DNA from: Bifidobacterium gallicum DSM 20093 = LMG 11596 | GTDB lineage: Bacteria > Actinomycetota > Actinomycetes > Actinomycetales > Bifidobacteriaceae | Assembly (NCBI RefSeq): GCF_000741205.1 | Contig: NZ_JGYW01000003.1 | Location: 124,001-188,000 of the forward strand | Reading direction: 5' to 3' | DNA length: 64,000 nucleotides | Shown: one piece after another, positions 18,191-41,562 of the stretch | How the letters are laid out: each line of letters starts with the position of its first letter | Position numbering within the stretch: the first letter of the stretch is position 1 | Notes under the pieces: generated by a model | What the model saw: the letters and a program-made list of their open reading frames with translations, nothing else | The model's database searches: none | Told to the model about the DNA's origin: nothing | Position numbers and translations under genes: made by a program

Positions 18191-18230
18191 TGTCTGCCGT
18201 CGTTGCTGAAGCTGGTTATTCCCCGAATTC

Positions 18231-18505
18231 GTAGCGTTTCTGTACCACGGTGGTACGTTCGCGGTACAGATTGGGTGGGGAATGGGCTGAAGTGTAGCGT
18301 TTTTGTACCACGGTGGTACAACTGCGGTACGGATTTAGGGCGAAAATGCACGCGTCTGTACCACGCTGGTACGTTCGCGGTATAAACGGGCGCAAATCCG
18401 TAGCGTGTCTGTACCACGGTGGAACGTTCGCGGTACGGATTGGGTGGGGAAGGGGCTGAAGTGTAGCGTTTTTGTACCACGGTGGAACGTTCACGATACG
18501 GAAAC
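18231..18505. repeat. Five-copy palindromic repeat array A (nusG-rplK intergenic)
   Basis: Units begin at about 18231, 18294, 18348, 18400 and 18463. Full units are 63 bases (copies 1 and 4) and are built as GTAGCGTTTTTG, then the palindrome GTACCACGGTGGTAC, GTTCGCGGTACGGATT and a G-rich tail GGGTGGGGAAGGGGCTGAAG. Copies 2 and 3 are shorter in the tail; copies 4 and 5 have TGGAAC in place of TGGTAC; copy 3 has GCTGG at the centre. The translated frames shift between copies, so this is not a coding repeat. No unique spacers, so not CRISPR. Confidence 0.85.
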
Positions 18506-18572
18506 GGTAGTGGAGCGGCACAAAAACGAGATGAAAAGATGCGGAAGAGGGATGGAAGCGGCCCGAAAGCAG

Positions 18573-18720
18573 CACAAAAGAGAGACGAAAGCTGAGAGAG
18601 GGGCGGAAGGGGCGCAGGAGCGGCACAAAAGAGAGACGAAAGCTGAGAGAGGGGCGGAAGGGGCACAGAAGCAGCTCAAAAGAGAGACGAAAGCGGCACA
18701 GAAGCGGCGCAAAAGCCGCA
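18573..18720. repeat. 51-bp purine-rich tandem repeat upstream of rplK
   Basis: A unit starting CACAAAAGAGAGACGAAAGC occurs at 18573, 18624 and (as CTCAAAAG...) 18675, exactly 51 bases apart; the first two copies are nearly identical and the third is partial. The plus strand is almost pure purine plus C from about 18525 to 18740. It follows array A directly and ends about 200 bases before rplK. Confidence 0.85.
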
Positions 18721-18939
18721 CGGAAACCGCACAACGGAGGCGCCGATTTAGGCTCTGGTAAAAGTCCGGTTCGTGGGGCATAATTGGAGAGTTGTGCCTG
18801 GAGGAATCGCAGGCCGTTCAGAGCGCCGTATCGGCGATCGTACACAGCTCCCGTTCCGCTCGCACAACGACACAACAAGTTGCGGAAGGTGCGCAGTAGG
18901 CGTGCCGCAATACCGCTCTAGTGAAAGAAGAACCATACA

Positions 18940-19371
18940 ATGGCTCCTAAGAAGAAAGTCTCGGCGCTGATCAAGCTCCAGATTGAGGCTGGCAAGGCCA
19001 ACCCGGCCCCGCCGCTGGGCCCGGCTCTGGGTTCGCATGGCGTGAACATCATGGATTTCTGCAAGGCATACAATGCCCAGACGCAGGACAAGATGGGCCA
19101 GGTCATCCCTGTTGAGATCACCGTTTACGAAGATCGTTCCTTCACGTTCATCCTCAAGACCCCTCCGGCAGCAGATCTGCTGAAGAAGGCCGCCGGTATC
19201 AAGAAGGGTACCGAGAACCCGCTGACGCACAAAGTTGGCTCGGTCACCAAGGCACAGGTCAAGGAAATCGCGGAGACGAAGATGGCTGATCTTTCCGCTC
19301 GCGACATCGAAGCCGCCATGAAGATCATCGAGGGCACTGCGCGCTCGATGGGCATCACGGTGAACGACTGA
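18940..19371 (+). CDS. rplK: 50S ribosomal protein L11
   Basis: L11 binds the GTPase centre of 23S rRNA and the stringent factor. The 143-residue product begins [20 protein letters not shown] and has [40 protein letters not shown] and the C-terminal RNA-binding part [20 protein letters not shown]. Full length. The ribosome site (GAAAGAAG) is weak. It lies downstream of two repeat arrays and must use a promoter in 18730-18930; rplA follows after 20 bases. Confidence 0.98.
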
Positions 19372-19391
19372 TAAGAGGGGAATAGACAGAC

Positions 19392-20087
19392 ATGGCTAAG
19401 CACTCCAAGAAGTATCGTGAAGCGGCCGAGCGCATCGACCGTAACAACCTGTACACCGTTCCTGAAGCTCTCGCTCTGCTGCAGAGCATGCCGGCTTACA
19501 ACTTCGACCAGACCGTCGAAGCTGTGCTGCGCTTGAACGTGGATCCGCGTAAGGCTGACCAGCTCGTCCGCGGTTCCGTGAACCTGCCGAACGGCACGGG
19601 TAAGACCGCCAAGGTCCTCGTGTTCGCTCGCGGCCCGAAGGCTACCGAAGCTCTCGAAGCCGGCGCCGACATCGTTGGCGACGACGAGCTCGTGGAGAAG
19701 GTCGCCAACGGCTTCCTCGATTTCGATGCCGTCGTGGCTACTCCGGACATGATGGGCAAGGTCGGCCGTCTGGGCCGCGTGCTCGGTCCGCGTGGCCTCA
19801 TGCCGAACCCGAAGACGGGCACCGTCACCATGGACGTGACGAAGGCTGTCAACGACATCAAGGGCGGCAAGGTTGACTTCCGCGTCGACAAGAACGGCAA
19901 CCTGAGCTTCCTGATCGGCAAGCTCTCGTTCACTCCGGAAGCTCTCGAAGAGAACTTCCGCGCTGTGGCCGACGAAGTTCGTCGCCAGAAGCCGACTACC
20001 GTGAAGGGCCGTTACCTGACCAAGGCAACGCTGACCTCCACGATGAACCCTGGCGTTCCGGTTGACACCGCTTCGGTCTTCGCCTGA
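19392..20087 (+). CDS. rplA: 50S ribosomal protein L1
   Basis: L1 forms the stalk that guides tRNA out of the E site and often represses its own operon. The 231-residue product shows [54 protein letters not shown] and the family signature [20 protein letters not shown]. Full length, ATG 19392 preceded by GAGGGGAA. Co-transcribed with rplK and closed by a terminator. Confidence 0.98.
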
Positions 20088-20122
20088 TCTCGCCTGAGTT
20101 CAACGGCTCAGTTTGATTAATT

Positions 20123-20166
20123 CCCGCTCCACTGCACATGTTGCTGTGGAGCGGGGATTTTTTATT
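20123..20166 (+). terminator. Rho-independent terminator after rplA
   Basis: CCCGCTCCAC pairs with GTGGAGCGGG around a 13-base loop, followed by GATTTTTTATT. Confidence 0.92.
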
Positions 20167-20234
20167 GTTATTTTTCATATACTCCCTTGGCCGCCACACC
20201 CCGCAGTCTGGCACCGTGCTTACACCGGCGCATT

Positions 20235-21014
20235 CTAGTGGTCGCGCATGCGGCCGATGGCTATGGCGGTGTTGAGGACGAAGGCGTCGCGCGGATCGGT
20301 GGCATCCCAGCCGCTGGTTTCGGCGGCGCGTTTGAGGCGGTAGCGCACCGTGTTCGGATGCACATTGAGTTCTTTGGCGGTCGCTTCCAGCGAACCGCCG
20401 TGACGCAGGAACGTGCTGACCGTGTTGAACGACGCGTCATCTTCGCTGTCCCCTAACACGACGCGATACACGTTGATATAGAGCTCGTCTCGCGCCATCG
20501 GGTCGCCAAGCAACGCGCGCTCAGGCAACAGATCATCATCGCGCACAGGTCGCGGCGCATCGAGCCATGCGGGAGCCGCTTGCAACGAGAAATAGGTTTC
20601 GCGAATGGTTTGCGAGGCTCCGACAATTCCCTCGCGCACAGGGCTGATGTACACAGCCTGATTGTCAGCGAATGCGTCCAACACATTTGTGCACAGCACT
20701 TCCGGGCGCACGGCTGATTCCTGGGTGGCGAGCACCATGACCATCGTGCCGGCCGCGCCGACGAGCGCATGGGCACCACCCAGGTCATGCACGGCTTGCC
20801 GCAGCATCCGGGAGGTGCTGGCCGGATGCTCGCGTGGTGTGCCACCAATCGCGAAGCAAGGGAACGCGCTGCCCCATCCCAACACATGCATGAGCGAGTT
20901 CACACGGTCATCGACCACACCATTGAGCAAGCATTCAAACGTGAGGCGTTCAATCGTCGTATCGTCGGTATGCCCGGCCAACAAATCCAGCACATCACTT
21001 TGCTCATCCATCAT
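20235..21014 (-). CDS. PucR-family transcriptional regulator (FasR-like candidate)
   Basis: The C-terminal 55 residues form a PucR/CdaR helix-turn-helix: STFLRHGGSLEATAKELNVH, PNTVRYRLKRAAETSGWDAT and DPRDAFVLNTAIAIGRM. The N-terminal 190 residues resemble the GGDEF-like sensory part seen in such regulators. In Streptomyces a PucR-family protein (FasR) next to fabD activates fatty acid synthesis; this gene lies about 10 kb from fas and has the same C-terminal pattern, so a role in fas control is a reasonable but untested idea. ATG 21014 or 21011 has no ribosome site; a TAGACT box 8 bases before it suggests a leaderless message. Length 259 is shorter than usual (about 400). Confidence 0.8.
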   Translation of the reverse strand: MMDEQSDVLDLLAGHTDDTTIERLTFECLLNGVVDDRVNSLMHVLGWGSAFPCFAIGGTPREHPASTSRMLRQAVHDLGGAHALVGAAGTMVMVLATQESAVRPEVLCTNVLDAFADNQAVYISPVREGIVGASQTIRETYFSLQAAPAWLDAPRPVRDDDLLPERALLGDPMARDELYINVYRVVLGDSEDDASFNTVSTFLRHGGSLEATAKELNVHPNTVRYRLKRAAETSGWDATDPRDAFVLNTAIAIGRMRDH

Positions 21015-21100
21015 GAGGCACGAGTCTAGCCGGTATGGCTGAATGCCAACAGTACGCAGCCAAATCCGGCAGTCAGCTCTGGTCCGATCTTAACGACAAT

Positions 21101-23389
21101 TCAGCTTTGGTCGCGTTGGGGACTGTGGATGCGTTGCTGACCTTGGTTGCGCTGGGCTTTTGCTGCACGCTCGTACGAGGTGCGTGGAGTGTTGGCGCGA
21201 CGCGTATCGCGCACAAATGTCAATACGAGGAAGCCGAACACAAACGCGAGCGGCAACATATGGCGCTCAAAGTTGTTGGCCGGCGCCATGACCATGACGC
21301 CCATCAGCATCAGCAGCGGAATATGCCATGCCAACGTTCTCCAACGCCGCAGCACGAGTTCCGCCGCGCCGAACAACAATGTCAACGTGACATAGAAATT
21401 GCCATGAGTAAGCCACCCCAACACGGGAATGTGACTCCACGAGTTGACAAAATGCACAACGTCATTACGCCAATCATGGTTGTATTGGCCGATCCATTCG
21501 GTTTGCGATTGCACGTAATCATTGTTCACGTAGTAGCTCATGGCCACATACGGTTCATCAACCACATCGAAGTAGCCGTAGCATTCGGCAAAGAACGCGT
21601 CCATCGCCACTTGCGGATTGGCCTGCACAATCTCAAGCCATGCGCTGTTGAATTGCTTCATGTCTTCAGGAGTGACGGTACGCCAACGGTAACTGGTCTT
21701 CTTGGATTGGATGCCTGAGGACTTCACAGGGTCGGCGTCTTGACGGAAATAGGCGTCGGCCATCTGGTCGAGATTGAAAATGGGCGCCAGTTTCTCGCGG
21801 GCCGATTGCGGGATTGACTTGGGATCATGCTTGGCTACGCGCGCAATCATTTGCAATTGGATGCCACGACTTTCAATCGGGTCGCCCGTAATAATCAGGC
21901 CTTGATGGCCCAGCGCGCTGATGCCGCCATGGATTAGCAGTGTGGGAAGGAACATGGTGAGCAGATATACCTTCCAACGGCGGCGGTCAGCGAGCATGCA
22001 CAGCACTACTTGGAGCATCAGAATGTACCATGCGTATTTTGCAGAAATCAACATGATAATAACGGAACCGACCATGGCCGCGAGCGTGCGTGGACGGACG
22101 TGGCCGCGCGTGCAAGCGAACTCGTAGAGCACGCCGAACCACCAGACGAACGCGAACGCGAACAGCGGGGATTTGGTGATCGAAATGGTCGAGAACCACA
22201 CGAGCGGGCAGCCCAGGAAGAACAGCAGAATCCACAAGCGAGCCGCGCCGCCAGCCGGACGCGTGCGCTTGAGGAAGCCGCGTTCGGGGTGAGCGTGTGA
22301 GCGCGGCTCAAGGTCGCAGCCGCGTGAGGGCGTCGGCGTAAAGCTTGTGGAAAGCCACGGCAGGTTGAGGAAGCGGTGCGCGGCCGACGCCACGGCGAAC
22401 GCGGCGAACGCGAACTGCAGTACCGAAAGCGTGACAAATCCCAGATCGTTCGAACCCGTCAGATAGCGCGAGAACGCTGTGACGGCGCCATAAAACACAG
22501 TCAGCACAACGTTGTGTTGGTCGGTCAGGTAGGTGGGGTCGTGCGGCCACAAATAATGCGCCGTGGGGTAGATGTCCATCGGCACGAACGAGAAGAACCC
22601 GATGTAGGGCTGGTCGAGGCCCGTCCACTGGTTCCAAGCCCAGCTGAACTCGCGCGCTTGGGAACGGATGTCGGCGCCGAATGCCGAAAGCAGCGTTGCG
22701 GGCACCCATAGCCAGCCAATGAAGAACACGAGGAACAGCTTCCAGAAGCGGTTGGTGGCGTGCGTGAGTTTGCGGCCTGAGCGGTGGAGGAAGAGGTGTA
22801 GGGGGGTGGGCAGGAGGTGGTGGGTAGTGTGCGCAGGGTGTGAGGAGGCAGTGCGTGAGGCGGCTGATGCGCGTGATGCGCGTGAGGCGGCTGCGCGGGT
22901 ATCTGCGGTCAAAGGTGAGGGATTGGCTACGGTGAGTGGAGACGGGTCTGTGGTGAGTGGGGACGGGTCTGCAGTGGCGTGCGGCGAGGGGTGGTCCGCA
23001 GTGCGTGACGGAATCCGGGTGATCATGCGCGGCGAGTGGCGGCGTGCACGCCACCAGCGCGGCAGGCGCCCGCTGCCGTAAGCCCAGAGCAGCCACACGA
23101 TTCCAAAAGTAATCGCGAAGGTGAGCACGAGCCAGAGCACGTTGATCGCGCCGAAAGAAGCCAGGCCTTGGTCGGAACGCATGCAGGGGCCGATGGCCGT
23201 GCACCAAGCGATCCACAGGCACGCGAGCGCGGCGATGGCCCATGTGAAGATTGACGCGGCGCGCGAACCGTGAGAGGCACGGGCGCGGCCGTTATTGGAT
23301 GATTGGCGTTGCGGGAAATTGCTGGCGTTGGGGGAGGAAGAGGAGGATTGAACGCGGCCGGCGGGGGTGCTGACAGTACGCGTGGCCAT
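21101..23389 (-). CDS. Large polytopic membrane protein (DUF6020-like, glycosyltransferase-C-like topology)
   Basis: A 762-residue protein with about a dozen hydrophobic segments, for example ASIFTWAIAALACLWIAWCT near the N-terminus, KLFLVFFIGWLWVPATLLSA, LWILLFFLGCPLVWFSTISI and VGSVIIMLISAKYAWYILML. The luminal loop with LDQPYIGFFSFVPMDIYPTA and the long soluble segment around QSKKTSYRWRTVTPEDMKQF are typical of a bifidobacterial family I recall as DUF6020; enzymatic role unknown, though the layout resembles membrane glycosyltransferases. A Pro/Ser/Thr-rich linker with repeated DPSPLT units (about residues 130-175) separates helices 2 and 3. The frame stays open far upstream, so the start is uncertain; ATG 23389 is chosen for composition, without a clear ribosome site. 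Confidence 0.7.
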   Translation of the reverse strand: MATRTVSTPAGRVQSSSSSPNASNFPQRQSSNNGRARASHGSRAASIFTWAIAALACLWIAWCTAIGPCMRSDQGLASFGAINVLWLVLTFAITFGIVWLLWAYGSGRLPRWWRARRHSPRMITRIPSRTADHPSPHATADPSPLTTDPSPLTVANPSPLTADTRAAASRASRASAASRTASSHPAHTTHHLLPTPLHLFLHRSGRKLTHATNRFWKLFLVFFIGWLWVPATLLSAFGADIRSQAREFSWAWNQWTGLDQPYIGFFSFVPMDIYPTAHYLWPHDPTYLTDQHNVVLTVFYGAVTAFSRYLTGSNDLGFVTLSVLQFAFAAFAVASAAHRFLNLPWLSTSFTPTPSRGCDLEPRSHAHPERGFLKRTRPAGGAARLWILLFFLGCPLVWFSTISITKSPLFAFAFVWWFGVLYEFACTRGHVRPRTLAAMVGSVIIMLISAKYAWYILMLQVVLCMLADRRRWKVYLLTMFLPTLLIHGGISALGHQGLIITGDPIESRGIQLQMIARVAKHDPKSIPQSAREKLAPIFNLDQMADAYFRQDADPVKSSGIQSKKTSYRWRTVTPEDMKQFNSAWLEIVQANPQVAMDAFFAECYGYFDVVDEPYVAMSYYVNNDYVQSQTEWIGQYNHDWRNDVVHFVNSWSHIPVLGWLTHGNFYVTLTLLFGAAELVLRRWRTLAWHIPLLMLMGVMVMAPANNFERHMLPLAFVFGFLVLTFVRDTRRANTPRTSYERAAKAQRNQGQQRIHSPQRDQS

Positions 23390-24146
23390 ACCGTTGACGC
23401 TGCTGCCGTCATGCTCTACTTGCTGGGTTTGCTGGGTCTGCTCACCGTTGCCGCCCTCGCGAACGGGGAGGTCGGGCGTATTTTCGGCGTGCTTTTTTCT
23501 GTGAGCGATACGGTGTTGGAGCTGCAAAAAAGCCCCGGAAGCCAAATTTGTACAATTCCTTGACAAAATAGACACCCTGAACGGTGTTGCGGGTACATCC
23601 GGTCGTGTAGGGTTGTCAATAGGGATCTGGTTCGCACGGTCGCCAATCATGATTCGTAAGCTTATTACGAGCGCACGAATGGGTGGCGAGCGTGTGCGGG
23701 ATGGCATGCTGCAGGGGATTTTCCAAAGATGGTTGATTGCTGGAGTGCGTCGAACTGCGTTGAACTGCGTCAGACTATGCGGAACTGCGAGAAATTTCGC
23801 TGAACTGTATTGGACTGCGCGGGGCTGCTTATTGCGGTCTGTTGTGAACCGGCTTCTTGACTCGCGGCTCGTGAGGCTGTTGCTCAAGGTGGTGAACAGC
23901 GGCGTTGCGGCTACGGGGAATGGTTTCGGGCGTGCGCCGCACACGCACACGCTTGAGCCGGGTGCATCGAAGCAGATGCACCAACTGCATAACTGCATAA
24001 CAAGATGCAAACGCACAGAAAATACTATGGGACCGCCATAGCACCGGAAACACCGTGGAGCATGTGCGCAGGCATCGCAATAGAGGATGCTCGAGCAGGG
24101 ATGCTGGGGGATACGTACTACTTGATACGCAGAAGGGAACCTGACA
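23390..24146. other. Divergent intergenic region with short repeats
   Basis: The 757 bases between the large membrane protein gene and the BirA-like gene hold no convincing coding sequence. A cluster of GAACTGCG-like decamers lies at 23751-23820. On the plus strand TTGACA occurs at about 23561, and 24036-24140 leads to the AAGGGAA ribosome site of the BirA-like gene. Confidence 0.5.
23751..23820. repeat. Decamer repeat cluster GAACTGCG
   Basis: CGAACTGCGT, TGAACTGCGT, CAGACTATGC, GGAACTGCGA, a gap of ten, TGAACTGTAT and TGGACTGCGC follow one another in almost exact ten-base steps, i.e. one helical turn each. Confidence 0.7.
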
Positions 24147-25370
24147 ATGGGGATGGTCGATACGGCAGCTACGCAAGCAGCGGTTACGCACACTGCAACT
24201 ACCGCTACGCGCACTACAGCTACGCACACTGCAACTACGCACACTGCGGCTGCCGCACGCAACAGCAACAGCAATACCAACAGCAACATCAACAACGAAA
24301 CTGACACTGCAACCACTGCAACCACTGCCAACACTGCAACCACTGCCAACACTGCCAACACTGCAACCGCCGCACACAAGCTGACTGACACTGTCAGCTC
24401 CTGGGGGTCCTGGATACGTGGGGAGCGCCGCCCGGGATCCACGCTGCTGGACGCAGGCAATCGTGGCATGGTCGTGCCCGTCAAAGCGCCGCGTCTGACG
24501 CGCACGCGCCAGCTGATTTCGCGTGTGTTCACGCGCGCTCGCGTGGCTTCCACGCAGCGTGAAGCCCGTCGTCTGGTGCGCGAAGGCGAGCTCAACAACG
24601 AGCTGCAGCGCATAACGCAATTCCCAGCCGCAGCGCTAATCCGTCCGGTCGCCGTCGTGGCCGCCGATGTGGAACATGATGCGCGCGGCCGGTTCAACCG
24701 CCGTTGGTTCAGCATGCCGAGCAGCTCACTCACGTTCACGCTCGTGGCCACGGCACCGCGTGAAGCCATGAATCATAAGGATTTCACAGGTTGGGTCAAC
24801 GTGCTCAGCTGCATCGCCGTCATCGACGCGATTCACGAAGCCGCGCCCGCTGACCTCGACAGCAAACTCACGTTCGCGTGGCCCAACGATATTCTGTGCG
24901 ACGGCATGCGCCTCGGCAGCGTCAACGTGTCGTACACGTCGTTGCCCAACGACGAGCAGCATGCCGCCGTGCTGATCACGTTCGGCCTGAACCTGGCAAT
25001 GCCGGCTTCCTGCCTGCCCACACCGAACGCCACGTCATTGTCAATGCATGTGCCAGACATGCCGTCCGCCGACACGTTGCGCGACATGATCACGGCTTCC
25101 GTCGTGGCCGCGCTGCCGCTGCAAGTGTCGGGTCTCGCCGCCCAGCATGACGCGCACCAGCAGGCAACAGTGTTGCGTGTGCGCGAATCGTTGTCTCGGC
25201 ACGCGCGCTCGCGTCACTTCCAGCTCAACGACGGCAGCAGCGTGGACGGCACGATTGTGGACTTCAACATCGACGCATCCGTCACAATCCGCACGAGCGC
25301 TGGAGACCGCCGCTTGCATCCGTCCGACGTTGGCGTGACGGCCCAGTGCATTGATGTGGTGCTTGCGTAA
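24147..25370 (+). CDS. BirA-like protein with degenerate ligase motifs
   Basis: A 407-residue paralogue of the next gene. After a repetitive Thr/Ala/Asn-rich N-terminus (residues 5-80) it follows the biotin-protein ligase fold: PVAVVAADVEHDARGRFNRR aligns with the GRGRLGRxW adenylate-binding loop, SKLTFAWPNDILCDGMRLGS with KWPNDxxxxxxKLxGIL, then LITFGLNLAMP, and a C-terminal SH3-like segment (FQLNDGSSVDGTIVDFNIDA). Key residues differ: the first Gly of GRGR is Ala, the invariant Lys of KWPND is Ala, and the Lys before LxG is Arg. It therefore probably cannot make biotinyl-AMP efficiently and may bind biotin, ATP or BCCP for another purpose. ATG 24147 follows AAGGGAA. birA starts 75 bases downstream. 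Confidence 0.8.
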   Translation: MGMVDTAATQAAVTHTATTATRTTATHTATTHTAAAARNSNSNTNSNINNETDTATTATTANTATTANTANTATAAHKLTDTVSSWGSWIRGERRPGSTLLDAGNRGMVVPVKAPRLTRTRQLISRVFTRARVASTQREARRLVREGELNNELQRITQFPAAALIRPVAVVAADVEHDARGRFNRRWFSMPSSSLTFTLVATAPREAMNHKDFTGWVNVLSCIAVIDAIHEAAPADLDSKLTFAWPNDILCDGMRLGSVNVSYTSLPNDEQHAAVLITFGLNLAMPASCLPTPNATSLSMHVPDMPSADTLRDMITASVVAALPLQVSGLAAQHDAHQQATVLRVRESLSRHARSRHFQLNDGSSVDGTIVDFNIDASVTIRTSAGDRRLHPSDVGVTAQCIDVVLA

Positions 25371-25445
25371 GCGCGGCAATCGCTTGGAGAAGATTGGGCT
25401 GGCCGACGCTCCTGATGCGGGCGCGAGCTGCAATAATCGGGAAGC

Positions 25446-26495: not shown

Positions 26496-26530
26496 CCCCC
26501 ATATCGTGGCACCGCGATGAATCGAGCTGT

Positions 26531-27223: not shown

Positions 27224-27558
27224 GGTGTTCGTCTCCTCTGCGATACCTGCCATGCAAGTCATGCCATGCAAGCCATGCCATGCAAGCCATGCCATGAAAG
27301 TCGCCGCACGTGGCCTTGTCCAGGAACGTTGTGCATGCGTGCATGGTGGCGTGGAACATGCCGAACGCTTGCGAAGCGGCAATGTCGCGTCCTCAGAGTG
27401 GTGAGGGCGAGCGGTTTGTGTCGCCCAAGTGCGGCCGGCAGGATTCATCGTAAGAAAGTTTGGTTACGACTCCGTTTGTGCACGTCAACAAAACTTGTGG
27501 CGAACTTTTGCATAATCGGCGATGCCGCACCCCGGACCGGCATGGCAAGGTGGAACGC
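27224..27558. other. Divergent bioY/accBC intergenic region with CATGCCATGCAAGC repeats
   Basis: Positions 27250-27297 hold a short tandem array of the 15-base type CCATGCAAG(T/C)CATG, rich in the palindrome GCATGC/CATG. It lies between the ribosome site of bioY and a 240-base stretch leading to accBC. It may contain shared regulatory sites; no known biotin operator is recognised. Confidence 0.5.
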
Positions 27559-31409: not shown

Positions 31410-31571
31410 CGCCCGCTGAGTTGCCAGCGGGGCTGCAAACCCGCCCAACGATCTGACCATGCATCAACCGAACCAACTCGCCACTCTTCTGGCCACCTAA
31501 CAGTTTCTATACAACCAACCGCTTCTATCCAACCAACATCCAACCAATCACCACTGATGGCAAGGAATCCT

Positions 31572-34500
31572 ATGAACAACCTCAACGAAGCCGCAGCTAC
31601 AACTGCGGCAGACGCCACCTCCACCACGAACTCGTTCGAGTATTTCCTCGACGTGCTGGGCGGCGCAGCCACTGACGCCAGCACTGCCAACACTGCCAGC
31701 GCAGCCGGCGAACCCTACGTGCTGATGTTCGCAGGCCAGTCCACACCGTGGACGACGGCGCTCAACGAATTGGCCGAGGACGGCCAGACGAGCAGCGTGC
31801 TGCACGCCCAAGCCGACGCCGCGCGCGCCAAACTCGCCCCTGTAGCGGCTGACCTGCTGGCCATAGCCGGCAAGCCGCTCGACTTGTTCGCGCTCGCGGC
31901 CGCCACGGCCAGCACGAATTCAGCACGCCTCGGTGCGGCTGCCGACGCCACAGCCAGCGTTGAAGGCATCGCATTGGCGCAGCTCGGCGCGCTGGCTGAG
32001 CTGGAAGCATTGGGCTTGGATCTGCGGCAGCATGCGCCAGCCGCATTGCTCGGCCATTCACAAGGCGTGCTCGGCGTACACATGGCCCATGCCATCGCCA
32101 AAGCCGGTTCCGTCGAGGCCGCTGCCGACGCCACGGCCAACATTCTGGCCATCGCCGCGCTGATTGGTGCGGCCGGCACGCGCGCCGCCCGCCAGGAAGG
32201 TCTCGTGCCGCGTTTTGGCGATGCCACGCCGATGCTGTCGGTCAAGGACGCCACGCCTGAACAGGTGCAGGCGCTGATTGCCAAGGTGCGCAATGCTCGC
32301 ACACCTATCTCAATCGCCGTGCGCAACGCGGCCGACCATCTTGTGCTGTCAGGTCATCCGCAGGATTTGCAAGCGTTCGCCGACCAGGCCGCCAAACTCG
32401 CCAAGCGTGAGCAGGCCGCGCGTGACGGCAAGCAGCAGGGTGGCGCCGTGTTCGATCCGACGCTCGAATATTTGGACGTGACACTGCCATTCCACAGCCC
32501 GCTCATGGAGCCGGCCGTCGAGCAAGTGGCCCAGTGGGCCGCCGCCTGCGGACTTGACGTGGACACGGCCGTCACGTTGGCGCGTGAAGTGCTCGTCGAT
32601 CCCGTCGATTGGGACGGCCAGGTACGCCAGTTGCTGGCCGATCAGGATGCAGCCGCACTCTGGGCGCTCGACTTGGGTCCGGGTGCTGTGACGGCCAAGC
32701 TGTTCTCAGCTGTCGCACAAGGCACGGGTGCCGGTGTCGTCGACGCGTCGACGGTCGAGGCGCGTGGCGCGCTCGCCACGACGCCAGCCCGTGCGTTTGC
32801 CCGTTTGCAGGATTGGTCGCGGTTCGCGCCGCGCGTGGTTGAGACGGCTGACGGCCCGAAGCTCAGTACGGCGTTCTCACGTTTGACGGGCAAGCCGCCT
32901 GTGCTGTTGGCCGGCATGACGCCGACGACTGTTGATCCAGAGCTTGTGGCCGCCGCTGCCAACGCGGGTTACTGGGCTGAGCTGGCTGGTGGCGGCCAGG
33001 TCACGGCCGAAGTGCTCGACCGCAACATCGCCGAACTCGAACGCTTGCTTGAAGAGGGCCGCACGGTTGAGTTCAACGCGATGTTCATGGACCGGTATTT
33101 GTGGAATCTGCAGTTCGGCCAGTCGCGTCTCGTGCCGAAGAAGCGTGCGAGCGGCGCGCCGATTGACGGCGTGGCCATTTCCGCAGGCATTCCTGAACTC
33201 GATGAGGCTGTGGAGCTCGTGCGTTCGTTCCAGGCCGACGGCCTGCCGTACGTCGCGTTCAAGCCCGGCACCGTCGACCAGATCCGCCAGGTGGTGCGCA
33301 TCGCCAAGGCCGTGGCTCCTGTGACTGTGCTCATGCAGGTTGAGGGCGGCCAGGCTGGTGGCCATCACAGCTGGGAAGCGCTCGATGATTTGCTGCTGCA
33401 AACCTATGCGCTTGTGCGTGAGCAGCCGAACCTCGTGCTGTTGGCCGGTGGTGGCATCGGCACGCCAGAACGTGCGGCTGACTATGTGACGGGCGAATGG
33501 TCGCTCAAGTACGGCCGTCCGGTCATGCCCGTGGACGGCGTGTTCATTGGCACGGCCGTGATGACGGCGCGTGAAGCACATACGAGCCCTCAAGTCAAGC
33601 AGCTGCTGCTCAACACGCCCGGTATCACGCCAGACACGCCTGCTGGCGCCGATTTGGGTACCGGTGATTGGGTTGCGTCAGGCAAGGTGCGTGGCGGCAT
33701 GACGAGCGGCATGAGCCATCTGCACGCCGACATTTACGAAATCGAGAACACGTCGGCCCAGTGCGGCCGCTTGCTCGCCTATCTTTCGAAGCATCCCGAC
33801 GAGGTTCCGGCTCGCCGTCAGGAAGTCATTGACGCGCTGGCCGGCACGGCCAAGCCTTATTTTGGTGATCTTGACACGATGACCTACCGCCAGTGGGCCG
33901 AACGGTTCGCTGAACTGTCGTTCCCGTGGGCCGACCCGACGTACGCCGACCGTTTCCTGCATATGCTGCAGCGCATCGAGGCGCGTTTGACGGCTCAGGA
34001 AACGGGTTCGTTCACGCCGTTGTTCACCACGCGTGAGCAGGTGGAATCCGACCCGTCGGTTGCGATCGCCGAGCTGGTCAAGGCGTATCCGCTGGCTGAG
34101 CAGCGCATTGTTTCGCCGATGGATGCGGCTTGGTTCACGACGCTCGTCAACGAGTATCCCAAGCCGATGCCGTTCGTGCCGGTCATTGATGGCGACGTGT
34201 TGCGTTGGTGGGGCCGCGACCAGCTCTGGCAGTCCGAAGACCCGCGCTATTCGGCCGATGTTGTGCGCATTATTCCGGGTCCCGTTTCGGTCGCCGGCAT
34301 CACGTCCGTCGACGAGCCCGTCAAGGACATTCTGGGCCGGTTCGAAACGGCGATGATTGACCGTGCCGCAGCCCAACAGGCGGACGAACAGGAATCACAT
34401 ATTGATTTCTCTGGCGCCAACGCGAGCGTTCCCGCCTCCGGCCAGCGTTTCGCCGTGCTCGGTGAGGCTGGCGACGCGGCTGCATTCATCCGTCGAAGCC

Positions 34501-37500
34501 CGAATATCTCATGGGTGGGCCACGTGATGGACAACCCGGCCTACGGCACGCAAGATGACGACGCGACGTATGAACTCGTGTCGCTCGGCCAAGGTACGGA
34601 CGAGCAGGGACGCACGGTCGAACAGTTCGACCTGGTGATTCATCTCGACACATTCTGGGACGGCGATCCGGATGGTGGCCTCTCAAAGCATGCCGTGCGT
34701 GAGATCACGATTCCGCTTGACGTGGCGCATGTGGCCGCTGGCACGATGCCTGTGGTCAACCGCGAGCGCCTGCCCAAGCATGTCTACTCGATGCTGGCCG
34801 CCACGGCCGGCATTGGCAACACGGCAATCACGGGTGACGAGTTGACCGAACTGCCTGTTGCTGATACGGCCAGCGCCAACGAAACGGCGCCGTTCGGCTT
34901 CGTGCACGCAACCTATACGCTCTCGCCAAACCTGGGTCTTGACCACGCGGCGGCCACGGGCTCGGCGATGCTGGAAACGGCTGACCTGATGATGTCGCGT
35001 ATCGTGCCTGACGCGCTCGTGGGACCGGCGTGGCCTGCGATCTATGCGGCGCTCGGCTCGGTCATGGTTGACGGATACCCGGTGATTGAAGGCCTGCTGA
35101 ACGCCGTGCATCTCGATCATCTGATCGATTTGGCCGTCACGGACCAGGAGCTGCTGGCGCGCACCGGTGAACAGGTGGTGTTGACGAGCTGGGCTGAACC
35201 GTATGCCGAGTCGGCGTCGGGACGCGTCGTAACGATTCACGTGAAACATTGCGCGCAGGACGGCACCGAACTAGCCCATGAAACCGAACGGTTCGCAATC
35301 CGTGGACGCGCTTATAGCGCCGCGCTGCCCGAACCGGCAGCCGAATATGGCGGCCTTGGCGAGGATGTGGAGCCTACGCCACGCCGTCTGCTGCGCCGCG
35401 TGAAGGTGACGGCGCCGGGTGACATGACGGCGTTTGCACGCACGTCGGGTGATTTCAACCCGATCCACACTTCGACACGTGGCGCGGCGATTAGTGGACT
35501 GTCGGCGCCGCTCGTGCATGGCATGTGGCTGTCGGCCACGGCCCAGCATGTGGTGCAGGCCACCGATATCAAGGGCATGCACTTTGAGATTGAAGGCTGG
35601 ACCTATTCGATGGTCGGCATGGTGCAGCTCAACGACGAAGTCGAAATCAGCGTGGAGCGCGTCGGCCACTTGCCGCATGGCGGTCTGGCGCTTGAAGTCA
35701 CGTGCAAGATCGATGGCGCGCTCGTCTCGCGTGGCACGGCTTTGTGCCGCGCACGCCGCAGCGCCTACGTGTACCCGGGCCAGGGCATCCAGCAGCAGGG
35801 CATGGTGTTGAATGAACGCGCGATGTCGCCGGCGGCGCGTGCCGTATGGGAGCAGGCTGACGCGTTGACACGTGAGAAGCTTGGATTCTCGATCCTTGCC
35901 GTCGTACGTGACAACCCGACCGAGTTGACGGCCAACGGTGTGACGTATCGACACCCCGAAGGCTTGCTGAACTTGACACAATTCACGCAGGTCGCTCTGG
36001 CGACGGTCGCGTTCGCGCAGACGGCGCGTTTGCGTGAGGCCGGCATGGATATTGACGGTTCGTATTTCGCAGGTCACTCGCTTGGCGAATACAACGCGTT
36101 GAGCTCGTATGCCGATGTGATTCCGCTCGACACCGTGCTTGAGCTCGTGTTCCACCGTGGTTCGACGATGCATCATCTGATTGAGCGTGATGAGCAAGGC
36201 CGTTCGAACTATCGTATGGGCGCGTTGCGTCCGAACCAGTTCGGTGTGGACGACGCGCATGTCAAGGATTATGTGGCGCGAGTCGCTGAGGAATCGGGCG
36301 AATTCCTGGAGATTGTCAACTACAACCTGGCCGGACAGCAGTATGCCGTGGCTGGCACAATCGCCGGTTTGAAGGCGTTGCAGGCCGATTCGGCACGTCG
36401 CGTGGCCGAGTATGGTGGCAAGCCCGCATTCATGTTGGTGCCGGGCATTGATGTGCCGTTCCATTCCACGCTGCTGCGCAAGGGTGTGGAGGAGTTCCGC
36501 AACAAGCTCGACGCGTTGCTGCCGCAATACATCGACTACCATGGCGCGTTGGAACACCGCTATATTCCGAACCTTGTGGCTGTGCCGTTCGAGATGACAC
36601 GCGAATTCGCGCAGCGCATCCTTGATGTGGTGCCCTCGACGCGCATCGCTGAAGCGTTGGCTGACCCGGCCGTCTGGGACGAGTATGCGGCCGACGACCA
36701 GAAGCTTGGCCGTTTGCTGCTGACCGAACTGCTCAGCTGGCAGTTCGCATCCCCGGTGCGCTGGATTGAAACGCAGGCGCTGCTGTTCGGGGCTCGCGAA
36801 CAAGGCGGTCTTGGCGTGGAACAGTATGTGGAAGTCGGTTTGGGCAATGCGCCGACGTTGGCCAACCTGGGTGCCAAGACGCTGCGCCTGCCGCAATTCG
36901 CCGACCGTGTGGTTGATGTGTTCAACGTGGGTCGTGACGAAGGCCGCGTCTACATGACCGACACTGATTCACTCGTTGAGGAAACCGTGGAAGAAACGCC
37001 GGTTGAAGCCGCTGCCGAACCGTCGGCTGCTCAGGCTGCGCCTGCCGCAGCTGAGGCAGCGCCTGCCGCGCCGGCACCGGTGGCTGCTCCGGCTGCTGTA
37101 CCGGCTGTGGCGGCCGGATCAGTGGCTGATATCGCGTTCAAGGCGCATGACGGCATCGCAATGCTGCTGGCCTATGAAGCCAAGGTGCGTCCAGATCAGA
37201 TTGGCGGTTCGGACACAACCGACACGTTGACCAATGGTGTGTCGTCGCGCCGCAACCAGCTGTTGATGGACATCAGCACCGAACTCGGTGTGGCCAGTGT
37301 CGAAGGCGCGGCCGAAGCCACGGTGGACGCGCTCAACGCGATGGTTGACAAGGTGGCGCCGAACTACAAGGCGTTCGGCCCGGTGCTGGCCGACATTGTG
37401 CGTGACCGCGTGCGTGGCATGTTTGGTGCTGCAGGCATCAAGCCGGCCGCAATCGAACAGCGCGTGACCGACGTGTGGGGCTTGGGCGAAGGCTGGGCCA

Positions 37501-40500
37501 AGCATGTGGTGGCCCAGATTGTGCTGGGCACGCGAGACGGCGCGAGCGCGCGTGGTGGCGATTTGGCCACGCTCGGCACGGACTGCGCATCGAACCAGGC
37601 GGCGGCCAATGCGCTGATTGACGCGGCTGTGGAACAGGTCGGTGCTGAGCAAGGTGTTGCTGTGGCCAAGCCGTCGGCTGGCGGTGCATCCTCAGTAGCC
37701 GTGGATTCGGCCGCGTTGGATGAATTCGCACAGACAGTGACCGGAAATAATGGAATCCTCGTGCAAACGGCACGCTACATTCTGAACCGTCTTGGGGCCG
37801 ACGCGGCTGTGACGGCCGATGAGGGCGACGATCAGAGCCATGTGCTCGAAGCGGTGGCCGCCGAACTTGGTTCCGACTGGCCCGAGCAGGTGGCGCCGCG
37901 GTTCCGTGCGAGCGAGGCCGTGCTGTTTGACGACCGTTGGGCGTCGGCGCGTGAGGATTTGGCGCGTGCGTTCTACGACCGTGACGAAACGGCGTTGGAC
38001 GGCCAGTTTGCTGGCCTTGGCCAGGCTGTTGCCGAGCAGGCGCGCTGGTATGCGACGCAAGCCCAGGAAGCCGGCGAAACCGAGCTGGCGCAACGGTTTG
38101 CGGCGATTGCCGACGAAGCGTTGACGACTCCTGAACTGCCGTATGCGGGTGACGTGGCCGTCGTGACGGGCGTGGCGCCCAACTCGATTGCCGCGCAGGT
38201 CGTGGCCGGACTGCTGGAAGGCGGCGCGACCGTGATCGCCACTTCGCACAGCTTCCGCCAGAGCGTCAAGAGCTGGGCCAAGCGCACGTTCCGTACGCAC
38301 GCCGCAGCTGGCGCGAAACTGTGGCTTGTTCCTGCGAATTTGTCAAGCTACCGGGATGTGGACGCGCTCGTGGACTGGATTGGACACGAACAGAAAAAGG
38401 TGAACGGCGCGACGACCACGGTGCTCAAGGAAGCTTACGAGCCGACACTGTTCTTCCCGTTCGCCGCTCCTCCGGTGCACGGCACGCTGGCTGATTCGGG
38501 CGAACTGTTCGAATCCCAGGCGCGACTGATGCTGTGGGGAGTCGAGCGTGCGATTGCCGGACTCGCGGCGCTCGGTGCCGACACGGACGTGCAGCACAAG
38601 TTGCACGTGGTGCTGCCGGGCTCGCCAAACCGCGGTATTTTCGGCGGTGACGGCGCATACGGCGAGGTCAAGAGCGCGTTTGACGCGATTGTCAACCGTG
38701 CGCGTGCCGAGCGTGCCGCATGGTCACAGCGCGTGACGTTCGCCCACCCGCGCATCGGATGGGTGCGCGGCACGGGCCTGATGGGCGGCAACGATCCGCT
38801 CGTAGCCGTGGTTGAACGCCAAGGACTGCGCACCTACAGCACGGCTGAAATCGCGCAGGAACTGCTGGCGCTCGTCTCTGCCGAATCGCGTGAGGCCGCC
38901 AAGCAGGCCCCGCTGAACGTGGATTTGACGGGCGGACTGGGCGACACGCCGATTGACATCAAGGCGCTGCGCGCTGAAGCGGAAGCTGACGCGGCGGCTG
39001 AAGCTGCTGCTGGAGCTGGTGCCGGGGCTGGTGTTGCTGGTGCTGCTGGAGCTGGTGTTGCTGACGGTGACACGGTGACAATCAAGGCGCTGCCGAACCT
39101 GACAGTGCCGCAGCAGGCGAGTGTGGATCTGGCCGACTGGACGGCTGTGACGGCGCGTCCGGAAGACCAGATTGTGATCGTGTCGATCGGCGAACTTGGC
39201 CCGTGGGGCTCCGGCCGTACGCGTGCCGAGGCCGAACTCGGCATCCATGAGGACGGCACAGTGGACCTGTCGGCCGGAGCTGTGCTCGAACTGGCATGGA
39301 ACATGGGCTTGATCTCGTGGGCCGACACGCCTGAACCGGGCTGGGTCACGCCGGAAGGCGAGCTCGTGCCCGAAGAGGAAATCCACGAACGCTTCCATGA
39401 CGAAGTTGTGGCACGCAGTGGCGTGCGACCGTTCGAAACGGGCATGGGATCGGACTACCGTCCGGGAGCCGGTGCCGGTGGCACGGGCGGCAATGACGAG
39501 GAAGAAGCCGAAGTGTTCCTCGACCATGACGTGACGTTCAGCGTGCCGTCGCAAGCGATCGCTGAAGAATACGTGGCAGTGGACGAAGCGCACACGACGA
39601 TTGCCGAAGATGCGGAAAGCGGCGAATGGCTCGTCACACGCACGGCCGGATCGATGATCCGCGTGCCGCGACGCGCCACAATGACGCGCACCGTGGGCGG
39701 CCAGTTCCCCGACGGATTCGATCCGATCAAGTGGGGCATTCCAGCCTCGATGGTCGGAGCCGTGGACCCGATCGCGTTGTGGAACATCGTCGTGACGGTG
39801 GACGCCTACCTGTCGGCAGGATTCACGCCAGCCGAGATTTTGCAGGCCGTGCACCCGTCGATGGTGGCCAGCACGCAAGGCACAGGATTCGGCGGCATGC
39901 ACTCGATGCGCAAGCTTTATCTCGACCGCTTCCTGAACCATGAGATCCCAACCGACATTTTGCAAGAAGCGCTGCCGAACGTGGTGGCGGCCCATGTGAT
40001 GCAAAGCTACATCGGCGGTTACGGCTGCATGATCCAGCCCGTGTCGGCGTGCGCCACGGCAGCCGTTTCGCTCGAGGAAGGCGCCGACAAGATCGCGTTG
40101 GGCAAGGCTGATTTCGTGGTCACGGGCGCCATTGACGACATTGGCGTGGAATCGGTGATTGGCTTCGGCAACATGAACGCCACCGCCAACTCGGCGGAAA
40201 TGCTGGCCAAGGGCATTGCGCCGCGATTCTTCTCACGTGCCAACGACCGTCGGCGTGGCGGCTTCATCGAATCGCAAGGTGGTGGCACAGTGCTGCTCAC
40301 GCGTGGCGACATTGCGCAGCGTTTGGGACTGCCTGTGGCTGGCGTGGTCGGATTTGTGCATTCCTACGCCGATGGCGCGCACACGTCAATCCCGGCACCC
40401 GGCTTGGGCGCGCTTGCCGCAGGCTTGGGCGGACGCAACTCAAAGCTTGCACGCGATCTGGAACGTCTGGGCGTTGGTGTGGACGACATCGCCGTGGTCT

Positions 40501-41117
40501 CGAAGCACGACACATCCACGAATGCCAACGATCCCAACGAGTCCGAGCTGCACAACTCGCTGGCCCATGCGTTGGGACGTGCTGAGGGTGAACCGCTGTT
40601 CGTGATCTCGCAAAAGAGCGTGACCGGCCACGCCAAGGGTGGCGCCTGCGTGTTCCAGGTCAACGGCTTGACGCAGCTGTTCCGCTCCGGCGTGGTACCG
40701 GCCAACGTGGCGCTCGACTGCGTCGACCCGAAGCTGGAACGCGACGACCACATGGTGTGGTTGCGCCAGCCACTGGACTTGGGCGCTCGCGGACCTATCA
40801 AGGCCGCACTGGCCACGTCGCTGGGCTTTGGCCATGTGTCGGGCTTTGTGGCGCTCGTGCATCCGGGTGCGTTCGAGGCCGCTGTGGCCAACACGCTGGG
40901 CCAGCAGGCGCTCGATGAATGGCGTGAGCGCGCCAACGAGCGTTTGGCTGCAGGCCGCCGCCACTTCGAAGAAGGCATGATGGGCCACAGCGCGTTGTAC
41001 GAGCCAGTCGACAACCGCCGCTTCGCCGAAGACGGTCGCGGCTACGTGGCGCACGACGTGGAGAAGGCCATGCTGCTCGATCCCGAAGCCCGCCTAGGCG
41101 CCAACGGCCAGTTCTAA
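31572..41117 (+). CDS. fas: Type I fatty acid synthase (FAS-I)
   Basis: One polypeptide of about 3181 residues that carries out the whole fatty acid cycle from acetyl- and malonyl-CoA. Domains in order: acetyltransferase with LLGHSQGVLG (about residue 160); enoyl reductase with LLAGMTPTTVDPELVAAAAN (about 442); MaoC-like dehydratase with GDFNPIHTSTRGA and LVHGMW (1295-1315); malonyl/palmitoyl transferase with YVYPGQGIQQQ and FAGHSLGEYNALSS (1398-1505); Ala/Pro linker, then ACP with the phosphopantetheine Ser in TNGVSSRRNQLL (about 1890); ketoreductase with VAVVTGVAPNSIAAQVVAGL (about 2195); ketosynthase with Cys in PVSACATAAVSLE (2826) and His in SKHDTSTNAND and KSVTGHAKGGA. No phosphopantetheinyl transferase domain; acpS is separate, downstream. 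ATG 31572 has AAGGA five bases before it; ATG 31557 is also in frame. Confidence 0.98.
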   Translation: MNNLNEAAATTAADATSTTNSFEYFLDVLGGAATDASTANTASAAGEPYVLMFAGQSTPWTTALNELAEDGQTSSVLHAQADAARAKLAPVAADLLAIAGKPLDLFALAAATASTNSARLGAAADATASVEGIALAQLGALAELEALGLDLRQHAPAALLGHSQGVLGVHMAHAIAKAGSVEAAADATANILAIAALIGAAGTRAARQEGLVPRFGDATPMLSVKDATPEQVQALIAKVRNARTPISIAVRNAADHLVLSGHPQDLQAFADQAAKLAKREQAARDGKQQGGAVFDPTLEYLDVTLPFHSPLMEPAVEQVAQWAAACGLDVDTAVTLAREVLVDPVDWDGQVRQLLADQDAAALWALDLGPGAVTAKLFSAVAQGTGAGVVDASTVEARGALATTPARAFARLQDWSRFAPRVVETADGPKLSTAFSRLTGKPPVLLAGMTPTTVDPELVAAAANAGYWAELAGGGQVTAEVLDRNIAELERLLEEGRTVEFNAMFMDRYLWNLQFGQSRLVPKKRASGAPIDGVAISAGIPELDEAVELVRSFQADGLPYVAFKPGTVDQIRQVVRIAKAVAPVTVLMQVEGGQAGGHHSWEALDDLLLQTYALVREQPNLVLLAGGGIGTPERAADYVTGEWSLKYGRPVMPVDGVFIGTAVMTAREAHTSPQVKQLLLNTPGITPDTPAGADLGTGDWVASGKVRGGMTSGMSHLHADIYEIENTSAQCGRLLAYLSKHPDEVPARRQEVIDALAGTAKPYFGDLDTMTYRQWAERFAELSFPWADPTYADRFLHMLQRIEARLTAQETGSFTPLFTTREQVESDPSVAIAELVKAYPLAEQRIVSPMDAAWFTTLVNEYPKPMPFVPVIDGDVLRWWGRDQLWQSEDPRYSADVVRIIPGPVSVAGITSVDEPVKDILGRFETAMIDRAAAQQADEQESHIDFSGANASVPASGQRFAVLGEAGDAAAFIRRSPNISWVGHVMDNPAYGTQDDDATYELVSLGQGTDEQGRTVEQFDLVIHLDTFWDGDPDGGLSKHAVREITIPLDVAHVAAGTMPVVNRERLPKHVYSMLAATAGIGNTAITGDELTELPVADTASANETAPFGFVHATYTLSPNLGLDHAAATGSAMLETADLMMSRIVPDALVGPAWPAIYAALGSVMVDGYPVIEGLLNAVHLDHLIDLAVTDQELLARTGEQVVLTSWAEPYAESASGRVVTIHVKHCAQDGTELAHETERFAIRGRAYSAALPEPAAEYGGLGEDVEPTPRRLLRRVKVTAPGDMTAFARTSGDFNPIHTSTRGAAISGLSAPLVHGMWLSATAQHVVQATDIKGMHFEIEGWTYSMVGMVQLNDEVEISVERVGHLPHGGLALEVTCKIDGALVSRGTALCRARRSAYVYPGQGIQQQGMVLNERAMSPAARAVWEQADALTREKLGFSILAVVRDNPTELTANGVTYRHPEGLLNLTQFTQVALATVAFAQTARLREAGMDIDGSYFAGHSLGEYNALSSYADVIPLDTVLELVFHRGSTMHHLIERDEQGRSNYRMGALRPNQFGVDDAHVKDYVARVAEESGEFLEIVNYNLAGQQYAVAGTIAGLKALQADSARRVAEYGGKPAFMLVPGIDVPFHSTLLRKGVEEFRNKLDALLPQYIDYHGALEHRYIPNLVAVPFEMTREFAQRILDVVPSTRIAEALADPAVWDEYAADDQKLGRLLLTELLSWQFASPVRWIETQALLFGAREQGGLGVEQYVEVGLGNAPTLANLGAKTLRLPQFADRVVDVFNVGRDEGRVYMTDTDSLVEETVEETPVEAAAEPSAAQAAPAAAEAAPAAPAPVAAPAAVPAVAAGSVADIAFKAHDGIAMLLAYEAKVRPDQIGGSDTTDTLTNGVSSRRNQLLMDISTELGVASVEGAAEATVDALNAMVDKVAPNYKAFGPVLADIVRDRVRGMFGAAGIKPAAIEQRVTDVWGLGEGWAKHVVAQIVLGTRDGASARGGDLATLGTDCASNQAAANALIDAAVEQVGAEQGVAVAKPSAGGASSVAVDSAALDEFAQTVTGNNGILVQTARYILNRLGADAAVTADEGDDQSHVLEAVAAELGSDWPEQVAPRFRASEAVLFDDRWASAREDLARAFYDRDETALDGQFAGLGQAVAEQARWYATQAQEAGETELAQRFAAIADEALTTPELPYAGDVAVVTGVAPNSIAAQVVAGLLEGGATVIATSHSFRQSVKSWAKRTFRTHAAAGAKLWLVPANLSSYRDVDALVDWIGHEQKKVNGATTTVLKEAYEPTLFFPFAAPPVHGTLADSGELFESQARLMLWGVERAIAGLAALGADTDVQHKLHVVLPGSPNRGIFGGDGAYGEVKSAFDAIVNRARAERAAWSQRVTFAHPRIGWVRGTGLMGGNDPLVAVVERQGLRTYSTAEIAQELLALVSAESREAAKQAPLNVDLTGGLGDTPIDIKALRAEAEADAAAEAAAGAGAGAGVAGAAGAGVADGDTVTIKALPNLTVPQQASVDLADWTAVTARPEDQIVIVSIGELGPWGSGRTRAEAELGIHEDGTVDLSAGAVLELAWNMGLISWADTPEPGWVTPEGELVPEEEIHERFHDEVVARSGVRPFETGMGSDYRPGAGAGGTGGNDEEEAEVFLDHDVTFSVPSQAIAEEYVAVDEAHTTIAEDAESGEWLVTRTAGSMIRVPRRATMTRTVGGQFPDGFDPIKWGIPASMVGAVDPIALWNIVVTVDAYLSAGFTPAEILQAVHPSMVASTQGTGFGGMHSMRKLYLDRFLNHEIPTDILQEALPNVVAAHVMQSYIGGYGCMIQPVSACATAAVSLEEGADKIALGKADFVVTGAIDDIGVESVIGFGNMNATANSAEMLAKGIAPRFFSRANDRRRGGFIESQGGGTVLLTRGDIAQRLGLPVAGVVGFVHSYADGAHTSIPAPGLGALAAGLGGRNSKLARDLERLGVGVDDIAVVSKHDTSTNANDPNESELHNSLAHALGRAEGEPLFVISQKSVTGHAKGGACVFQVNGLTQLFRSGVVPANVALDCVDPKLERDDHMVWLRQPLDLGARGPIKAALATSLGFGHVSGFVALVHPGAFEAAVANTLGQQALDEWRERANERLAAGRRHFEEGMMGHSALYEPVDNRRFAEDGRGYVAHDVEKAMLLDPEARLGANGQF

Positions 41118-41205
41118 GCGATATCGCGGCGCGGCTGCGTGGTTGCGGCGCTGGTTGAGCGGCATGCGTGATGTCGTGCGACATCAGGTGATTGCGACAC
41201 AATCC

Positions 41206-41248
41206 GTGGTGGGGTGGTACCCGTTGGTACCACCCCACCACTTCTTAT
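41206..41248 (+). terminator. Perfect 16-bp stem-loop after fas
   Basis: GTGGTGGGGTGGTACC (41206-41221) pairs without mismatch with 41226-41241 around loop CGTT, followed by TTCTTATAT. It probably ends the accBC-accD-fas message. The inner GGTGGTACC-N4-GGTACCACC resembles the core of repeat array A. Confidence 0.75.
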
Positions 41249-41300
41249 ATGTCCCTATCCCGCCTTCCCACCCAACTTCTTCGGTCAACTTCCCAGCCCC

Positions 41301-41562
41301 TCAAACTGCCACTTGCCTGACCAGCTTGGTCAGAAGGTTTACGGTTTGGGCGCTGAAATTGCGTCTTTTCTGACCAGCCTGGTAAAGGAAATTACGTTTT
41401 TGGCCCTTAAACTGCATCTTTTCTGACCAGCTTGGTAAGGAGGTTTACAGTTCCAGCCCTTAAACTGCGTCTTTCCTGACCGGTCTGGTCAGGAGGTTTA
41501 CGGTTTGGGTTCTCAAACTGCATCCTTTCTGACCAGCTTGGTAAGGGAAGATGCGTTTTCGG
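41301..41562. repeat. Five-copy palindromic repeat array B (fas-acpS intergenic)
   Basis: Units begin at 41301, 41354, 41408, 41461 and 41513, a 52-54 base period. Each reads (T)AAACTGCGTCTTTTC, then the palindrome TGACCAGCTTGGTCA, then AGGAGGTTTACGGTTTGGG and a short spacer. Copies 2, 3 and 5 have TGGTAA instead of TGGTCA, and copy 4 has CCGGTCTGG in the centre. The translated frame differs between units and no unit has a start with ribosome site. Confidence 0.85.

Follow-up and report, generated by a model that had tools for sequence, protein, structure and literature searches.

Intergenic arrays of palindromic units in Bifidobacterium gallicum

The window analyzed here is a stretch of 64,000 nucleotides of the B. 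gallicum genome. Two of its intergenic gaps carry arrays of short repeated units (Table 1): array A is located between nusG and the gene for ribosomal protein L11 (rplK), and array B between an ORF of 3186 codons, which we presume to encode a type I fatty acid synthase, and acpS. As an earlier note on this sequence had reported, each array contains five units, and an ACC-N5-GGT core was found in all five units of both. The core-to-core spacing is 63, 53, 53 and 63 bp in array A, while it is 53 bp between all units of array B, whose plus strand has a G+T content of 57%. The terminator-like repeat on the 3' side of nusG has two perfect arms of 13 bp each, followed by a T-rich run. TRF with its default score gave no row for array A, and an Rfam scan of the window reported three tRNAs only, neither array being matched above the gathering score. 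Array A is directly followed by a separate purine-rich tandem array, which lacks the palindrome core and has a period close to that of A.

Table 1. Features surrounding arrays A and B (positions in the window)
Feature	Position	Strand	Details
nusG, flank of array A	17234..18106	+	Pfam NusG 1.3e-24 and KOW
Terminator-like inverted repeat, 3' side of nusG, upstream of array A	18155..18190	+	Arms, T-rich run
Array A	18224..18507	.	Five units; cores 18244, 18307, 18360, 18413, 18476
Purine-rich 51-bp tandem array, separate from A	18546..18733	.	TRF, repeat search
rplK, ribosomal protein L11, flank of array A	18940..19371	+	Pfam
3186-codon ORF, flank of array B	31557..41117	+	ORF list
Terminator-like inverted repeat, between 3186-codon ORF and array B	41206..41241	+	16-bp perfect
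Array B	41298..41563	.	Five units; cores 41320, 41373, 41426, 41479, 41532
acpS, flank of array B	41749..42216	+	Pfam ACPS 4.8e-10

Arrays A and B share one design

In A and B, the unit is an imperfect inverted repeat of about 45 bp with an ACC(A)-N3-(T)GGT core, repeated with a period of 52-53 bp. The window contains the sequence ACCANNNTGGT 10 times, where base composition predicts 0.82 occurrences, and seven of the 10 fall within the two arrays. Read by eye from the alignment columns, the unit including its outer half-sites is roughly ATCCGTANCGYGTTTGTACCACNGTGGTACAAACRCGNTACGGAT for A and AAACYGCATCTTTCCTGACCAGNCTGGTCAGGAAAGATGCRGTTT for B. These half-sites, which in array A extend about 22 bp to each side of the unit centres, bring the unit to its full length; like the 53-bp lattice, they were absent from the earlier description. 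That description rested on a 15-base palindrome, a leading GCGT-(T/C)-TTTT block and a G/T-rich or purine-rich trailing half. The palindrome exists in its exact 15-bp form in two of five A units (GTACCACNGTGGTAC) and in one of five B units (TGACCAGNNTGGTCA), but the core is 11 bp long. The leading block is exact in one of the 10 units (41361), and the trailing half is part of the G/T skew that the arrays show on one strand and, after A, of the separate 51-bp array.

Conservation is position-specific in both classes, covering the core plus positions +-13, +-14, +-17 and +-18 in A, and the core plus +-17, +-20 and +-21 in B. Arrays of both classes begin and end with whole units: when three conserved outer letters were scored, they were found in 68% of terminal arms, 91% of internal arms and 3% of positions one period past the end for A, and in 76%, 86% and 11%, respectively, for B. 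The likeness of A to B outside the core is weak, a value reached by 2.3% of 2000 column shuffles. The common core, the common 52-53 bp lattice and the mutual register seen in some arrays support the view that both arrays follow a single design.

Copy number and placement in the genome

Genome-wide searches, in which one palindrome scores on both strands, returned 68 forward and 67 reverse matches to the A pattern with at most two mismatches (the backwards control giving 6 and 5) and 38 + 38 matches to the B pattern with at most three (0 and 0 for the control). Paired cores in the same genome gave 115 versus 2. In 37 stretches around the matches listed (229 kb), plus the window, we identified at least 285 units, of which 70 are of class A and 215 of class B, in at least 41 intergenic arrays, these totals being lower bounds. 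A unit standing at lattice distance was accepted with as many as two mismatches in its core, and a few of these calls are doubtful, such as the last unit of stretch L077 and the first of L054. One stretch (L053) carries a single whole A unit, and the array of L050 overlaps a called ORF, perhaps because of a wrong start.

Genes on both sides were called, with a home-made ORF caller, for 37 of the 41 arrays: 20 lie between codirectional genes, 11 between convergent and 6 between divergent genes. The occurrence of arrays in all these settings is more readily expected of an element acting as DNA than of one belonging to 3' UTRs. The suggestion that arrays lie just past a terminator holds for both arrays of the window (18155-18185 and 41206-41241), but as a general rule it had to be rejected, given the divergent settings. 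Among the array flanks scanned with Pfam (NusG, L11, ACPS, ABC transporter, permease, glutamine synthetase, RNase III), no shared theme emerged. The palindromic cores, their intergenic location and their sequence specificity are also what operators of local transcription regulators would display. It is very improbable that the arrays are such operators, considering the variety of genes adjoining the 41 arrays, the presence of as many as 20 B units in a single array and the 11 arrays between convergent genes.

The lattice is apparent from exact cores alone. Among 112 consecutive spacings below 80 bp, 106 measured 51-54 bp, five 62-63 bp and one 56 bp, and 22 of the 23 spacings of 80-130 bp measured 104-107 bp, corresponding to two periods. 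This tally does not depend on the acceptance of units at 51-54 or 62-63 bp, by which an earlier unit-based histogram was partly circular; a few of the stretches tallied had been chosen by a pair pattern permitting 50-56 bp. A and B units share the register in mixed arrays, as seen for unit 2744 of L042 (at +53), unit 3170 of L071 (at +52) and, in L065, a B unit following A at +52.

A is copied as blocks and B grows locally

The two classes spread differently. For 61 of the 70 A units the nearest relative is in a different array. In 17 cases the two arrays concerned each have five units, and in 11 of these the relative occupies the same index. Two A arrays on contig C9 have two units in common at 100% identity, in inverted order. 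Five units, which the earlier note had found in both arrays, are common in A only: exactly five are present in 8 of the 15 arrays with at least two A units, the remainder having two to six, and B arrays range from 2 to 20 units. The nearest relative of a B unit lies within its own array in 114 of 215 cases, against 9.0 expected. A thus spreads between loci as multi-unit blocks, and B grows locally.

Such behaviour is what would be seen if the arrays were selfish or mutational repeats without a host function, A being a MITE-like copied block and B a satellite expanding by unequal exchange; the period would then be a consequence of duplication formation on palindromic DNA. The species distribution described below, with the layout in 2 of 112 genus genomes and sequences that vary among species, agrees with this explanation as well. 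We regard it as rather unlikely, in view of the position-specific conservation and the whole-unit ends, which the binding site of a mobilizing enzyme would nevertheless also produce. It is also disfavoured by the search for a mobilizer, which found none: the three Y1_Tnp matches each lie beside a TnpB-like ORF and have no array within 1.5 kb of flank. The TnpB-like neighbour is a 555-aa frame in L173 and L174, the window copy having been matched to TnpB, and was recognized by eye in L172; the three 3.4-kb loci together contain one ACCANNNTGGT. In the window, an IS200/IS605-type element occupies positions 14792-16706, with the Y1 transposase on the minus strand adjoining the TnpB-like ORF; a near-identical copy is present at C3:31835 and a differing one at C5:408573.

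Comparison with known intergenic repeats

According to PMC2817692, REP and BIME elements of enterobacteria and Stenotrophomonas are intergenic, high-copy, regularly spaced palindromic units that form hybrid clusters of two types, and BIME-2 binds gyrase while BIME-1 binds IHF. The bifidobacterial arrays resemble them in being intergenic, palindromic, clustered and present in more than 100 copies. They differ from BIME-2 and REP arrays by their near-symmetric units of about 45 bp, their period of 52-53 bp and the lack of a GTAG/CGTC tag; no RAYT was found. REPs alternate in orientation at regular spacing; here the spacing of 52-53 bp is regular, but the units are close to symmetric, and within an array the G-T polarity mostly has one direction. 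The GTAG/CGTC REPs, as presented in PMC3733652, comprise many families of short palindromic repeats, the CGTC ones having no dedicated transposase. The short palindromic form is shared, but no GTAG or CGTC end tag was detected in the conserved columns of A and B, where the GTA of the A units continues with G in 23% of cases. REPINs, described in PMC8049555 and PMC2817692 as non-autonomous intergenic repeats whose sequence varies among species, are similar in these three respects, but none of the three inspected Y1_Tnp matches in the B. gallicum genome is a repeat-flanked transposase like that of REPIN/RAYT systems. The nearest class is REP/BIME; as neither a RAYT nor a tag was found, the arrays are not counted among the REPINs or the tagged REPs.

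Neither the main text of PMC3733652 nor the accessible text of PMC12306157 (RepRanger) contains a word starting with Bifidobacter or Actinobacter. No title on such bifidobacterial arrays was present among the matches listed from the open-access literature, a scope that mostly excludes subscription journals.

Arrays of similar period in other Bifidobacterium genomes

The earlier note had proposed a repeat superfamily with a common ACCA-N3-TGGT layout. A profile scan showed that this layout is species-specific: it matched 2 of 112 genomes, with 115 paired-core sites in B. gallicum and one site among the 111 other genomes of the genus (in G063). The proposal is supported insofar as A and B share one design and other genomes of the genus have arrays that differ in sequence and are similar in period. 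Near acpS, arrays of different sequence were found in three relatives, upstream of the gene in L086 and downstream in L081 and L090.

We analyzed 46 other genus genomes, represented by 100 stretches of at most 20 kb (1.98 Mb in total, 20 to 186 kb per genome). The sample is partly non-random: G007, G074 and G033 were picked for their arrays near acpS, G029 and G023 because L11 places them closest, and the position of at least eight stretches was set at acpS or rplK. Scanning these sequences for lags (window of 106 bp, identity of at least 57%, open frames of at least 150 aa excluded) yielded 44 noncoding rows, of which 27 represent 26 arrays (one in two pieces) with a period of 45-80 bp in 16 of the 46 relatives. 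With A and B included, 17 periods are at 51-53 bp, 8 at 60-63.5 bp, 2 at 72-73 bp and 1 at 49 bp; none falls at 54-60 bp, and the classes are separated by about one DNA turn. Against a 10.5-bp step, these periods, tallied by hand, gave R = 0.84, which none of 5000 uniform draws reached; as R was 0.82-0.86 across every step tried from 9.5 to 10.75, an even spread is rejected and the step is not fixed. From the period test we excluded 12 double-lag rows whose half-lag was a poor match (G029 at 121, four times, and at 118, the latter resembling a duplicated tRNA; G074 at 99, 104, 105 and 105; G043 at 114; G057 at 116; G106 at 100) and five rows below 45 bp (21, 38 and three times 33). Uncounted open-frame rows include G007 at lag 52 (twice) and G033 at lag 63.

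Many of the relatives' units look by eye like inverted repeats of about 45 bp. In 24 of the 44 rows the best inverted repeat exceeded all 15 shuffles. Among the 26 arrays of the period test it did so in 15, and it failed to do so for both arrays of G044 and those of G030, G015 and G014. As only part of the arrays surpass their shuffles, what they have in common is primarily the period and secondarily the hairpin. A prediction of 51-53 or 60.5-63 bp for hairpin arrays, made in advance and compared with 20 new genomes, fitted three of the four arrays then found (52, 61, 63 and 73 bp); the 73-bp array is near seven helical turns, a reading made after the fact, and the inverted repeat stood above shuffles only at 61 and 63 bp.

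Under the same lag-scan rules, eight outgroup genomes of other genera, one of them of the same family, gave no row in 20 stretches (400 kb); at 53% identity, one noncoding row of lag 34 was obtained. The open-frame rule is harsher in GC-rich genomes, so this zero is weaker than its face value; the rows that it dropped include G141 at lag 51 with 77% identity and, in G131 and G112, rows with lags of 28, 34, 38 and 42 bp. Shuffled sequences produced no match in 12 pieces at 55% identity and four in 100 stretches at 53% (lags 24, 24, 28 and 112), controls that belong to the 55% and 53% scans and not to that at 57%.

Two further arrangements were observed. The gap upstream of rplK in G066 (L191), the gap that carries array A in B. 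gallicum, contains three widely spaced hairpins of about 50 nt, AACGGACATACAG...CTGTATGTCCGTT. In G029, the nearest relative by L11, hairpins of about 45 nt are separated by short and long spacers in alternation, with a two-unit period of 121 bp (L205, L208 and L211).

Strand skew, folding and arm covariation

Arrays are G/T-rich on one strand, and this polarity correlates with the gene strand in the stretch (rho 0.46, p 0.003; 38 stretches, one without units), the same comparison for intergenic GC skew giving 0.30 (p 0.066). Read on one strand, the stem mismatches of an array are often G-T for the most part, with 116 to 8 among the B units of L055 and 27 to 0 for one array of L059. When the first 260 nt were folded and compared with 16 dinucleotide shuffles, the better strand had a z below -2 in all 41 own arrays and in 13 of the 17 examined from relatives.

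These results could be explained by an element acting at the RNA level, transcribed arrays being strings of hairpins of about 45 nt that would serve as RNase III substrates, in mRNA protection or in termination. The folding values speak for it, as does the bias of G-T stem mismatches to one strand, which tends to agree with gene direction; the G/T skew that tracks the gene strand would suit this explanation or another transcription-linked process. We nonetheless give it a minor share of the probability. Spacers are as G/T-rich as stems (0.62 versus 0.58 in B, 0.57 versus 0.55 in A), so the skew is not pairing-specific. Some arrays are mixed in G-T polarity (24 to 31 in L054, 26 to 20 in L073), and units within one array share descent. 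Six of the 37 arrays lie between divergent genes, and no arm pair of B covaries above z 2.3, positions +-10, 11, 13, 14 and 18 trending the opposite way. The arms of A gave z values of 2.5-5.1 at +-13, 16, 17 and 18, which a second kind of outer arm in the middle units likely causes.

A candidate protein-docking element

We favour, with a probability of about 45%, the view that A and B represent two classes, differing in sequence, of a single BIME-like element, non-autonomous and intergenic, at which proteins dock at the DNA level. In its favour are the spacing lattice, the position-specific conservation, the whole-unit ends, the common register of A and B units, the period classes of the genus and the presence of arrays in every gene setting. 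A DNA-binding protein would recognize by sequence the complete inverted repeat of about 45 bp, comprising the inner palindrome and the outer half-sites. Units spaced about five, at times six or seven, helical turns apart would place protein dimers on one face of the DNA; by analogy with BIME-2 and gyrase, the aligned dimers may form a docking array, which could in turn affect the chromosome. Co-evolution of recognizer and repeat would be expected to retain the layout and replace the sequence between species, and the comparison of relatives suggests that the layout is kept while the letters turn over. The correlation of polarity with gene strand counts against a docking element, as a purely DNA-level element predicts none. 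So do the range of steps that fit the periods equally well and the inverted repeats of relatives, which surpass all shuffles in only 15 of 26 arrays. The period classes could also derive from shared descent or from a duplication quantum. The earlier note had suggested that each palindrome is perhaps read by a different partner, but a search for the binding partner revealed no candidate and the two arms of B do not covary; ParB_N matched one locus only, and a ParB-like partner was rejected for that reason.

A broader and doubtful extension is that the arrays constitute a genus-wide bacterial satellite, in which the geometry of whole turns between inverted repeats is selected and the letters are replaced in each species together with a fast-evolving chromosome-organizing protein. 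If the layout is selected and the letters are free, the arrays would be a bacterial counterpart of satellite DNA co-evolving with its binding protein. The period classes allow a direct test, and the arrays could be used as bait for that protein. Even if selfish, they represent an abundant repeat class that is partly missed by usual detectors (TRF, Rfam).

Searches beyond the genus

Searches of phages with the array B DNA and of plasmids with the array A DNA returned no match. A scan for triple cores retrieved 22 stretches from the genome_contigs collection, none titled bifidobacterium (records of the own genome were possibly excluded), and two from viral_contigs. Six of these 24 loci were inspected (L112, L113, L120, L126, L128 and L130): two resemble protein repeats, two are hairpin arrays of different sequence and two have a common site cluster. 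The hairpin arrays are located in Neobacillus (L113, 2941-3316; period of 52 bp) and in Nocardioides (L120, 911-1365 and 1726-2033; periods of 51 and 53 bp, with the inverted repeat GGTGGTTGAG...CTCGAAACCACC); the periods of both are no independent evidence, since the search pattern demanded a spacing of 51-54 bp. Similar clusters of ACCA-N3-TGGT sites are present in Paenibacillus (L112, 6500-6616) and in a viral contig (L130, 12961-13076).
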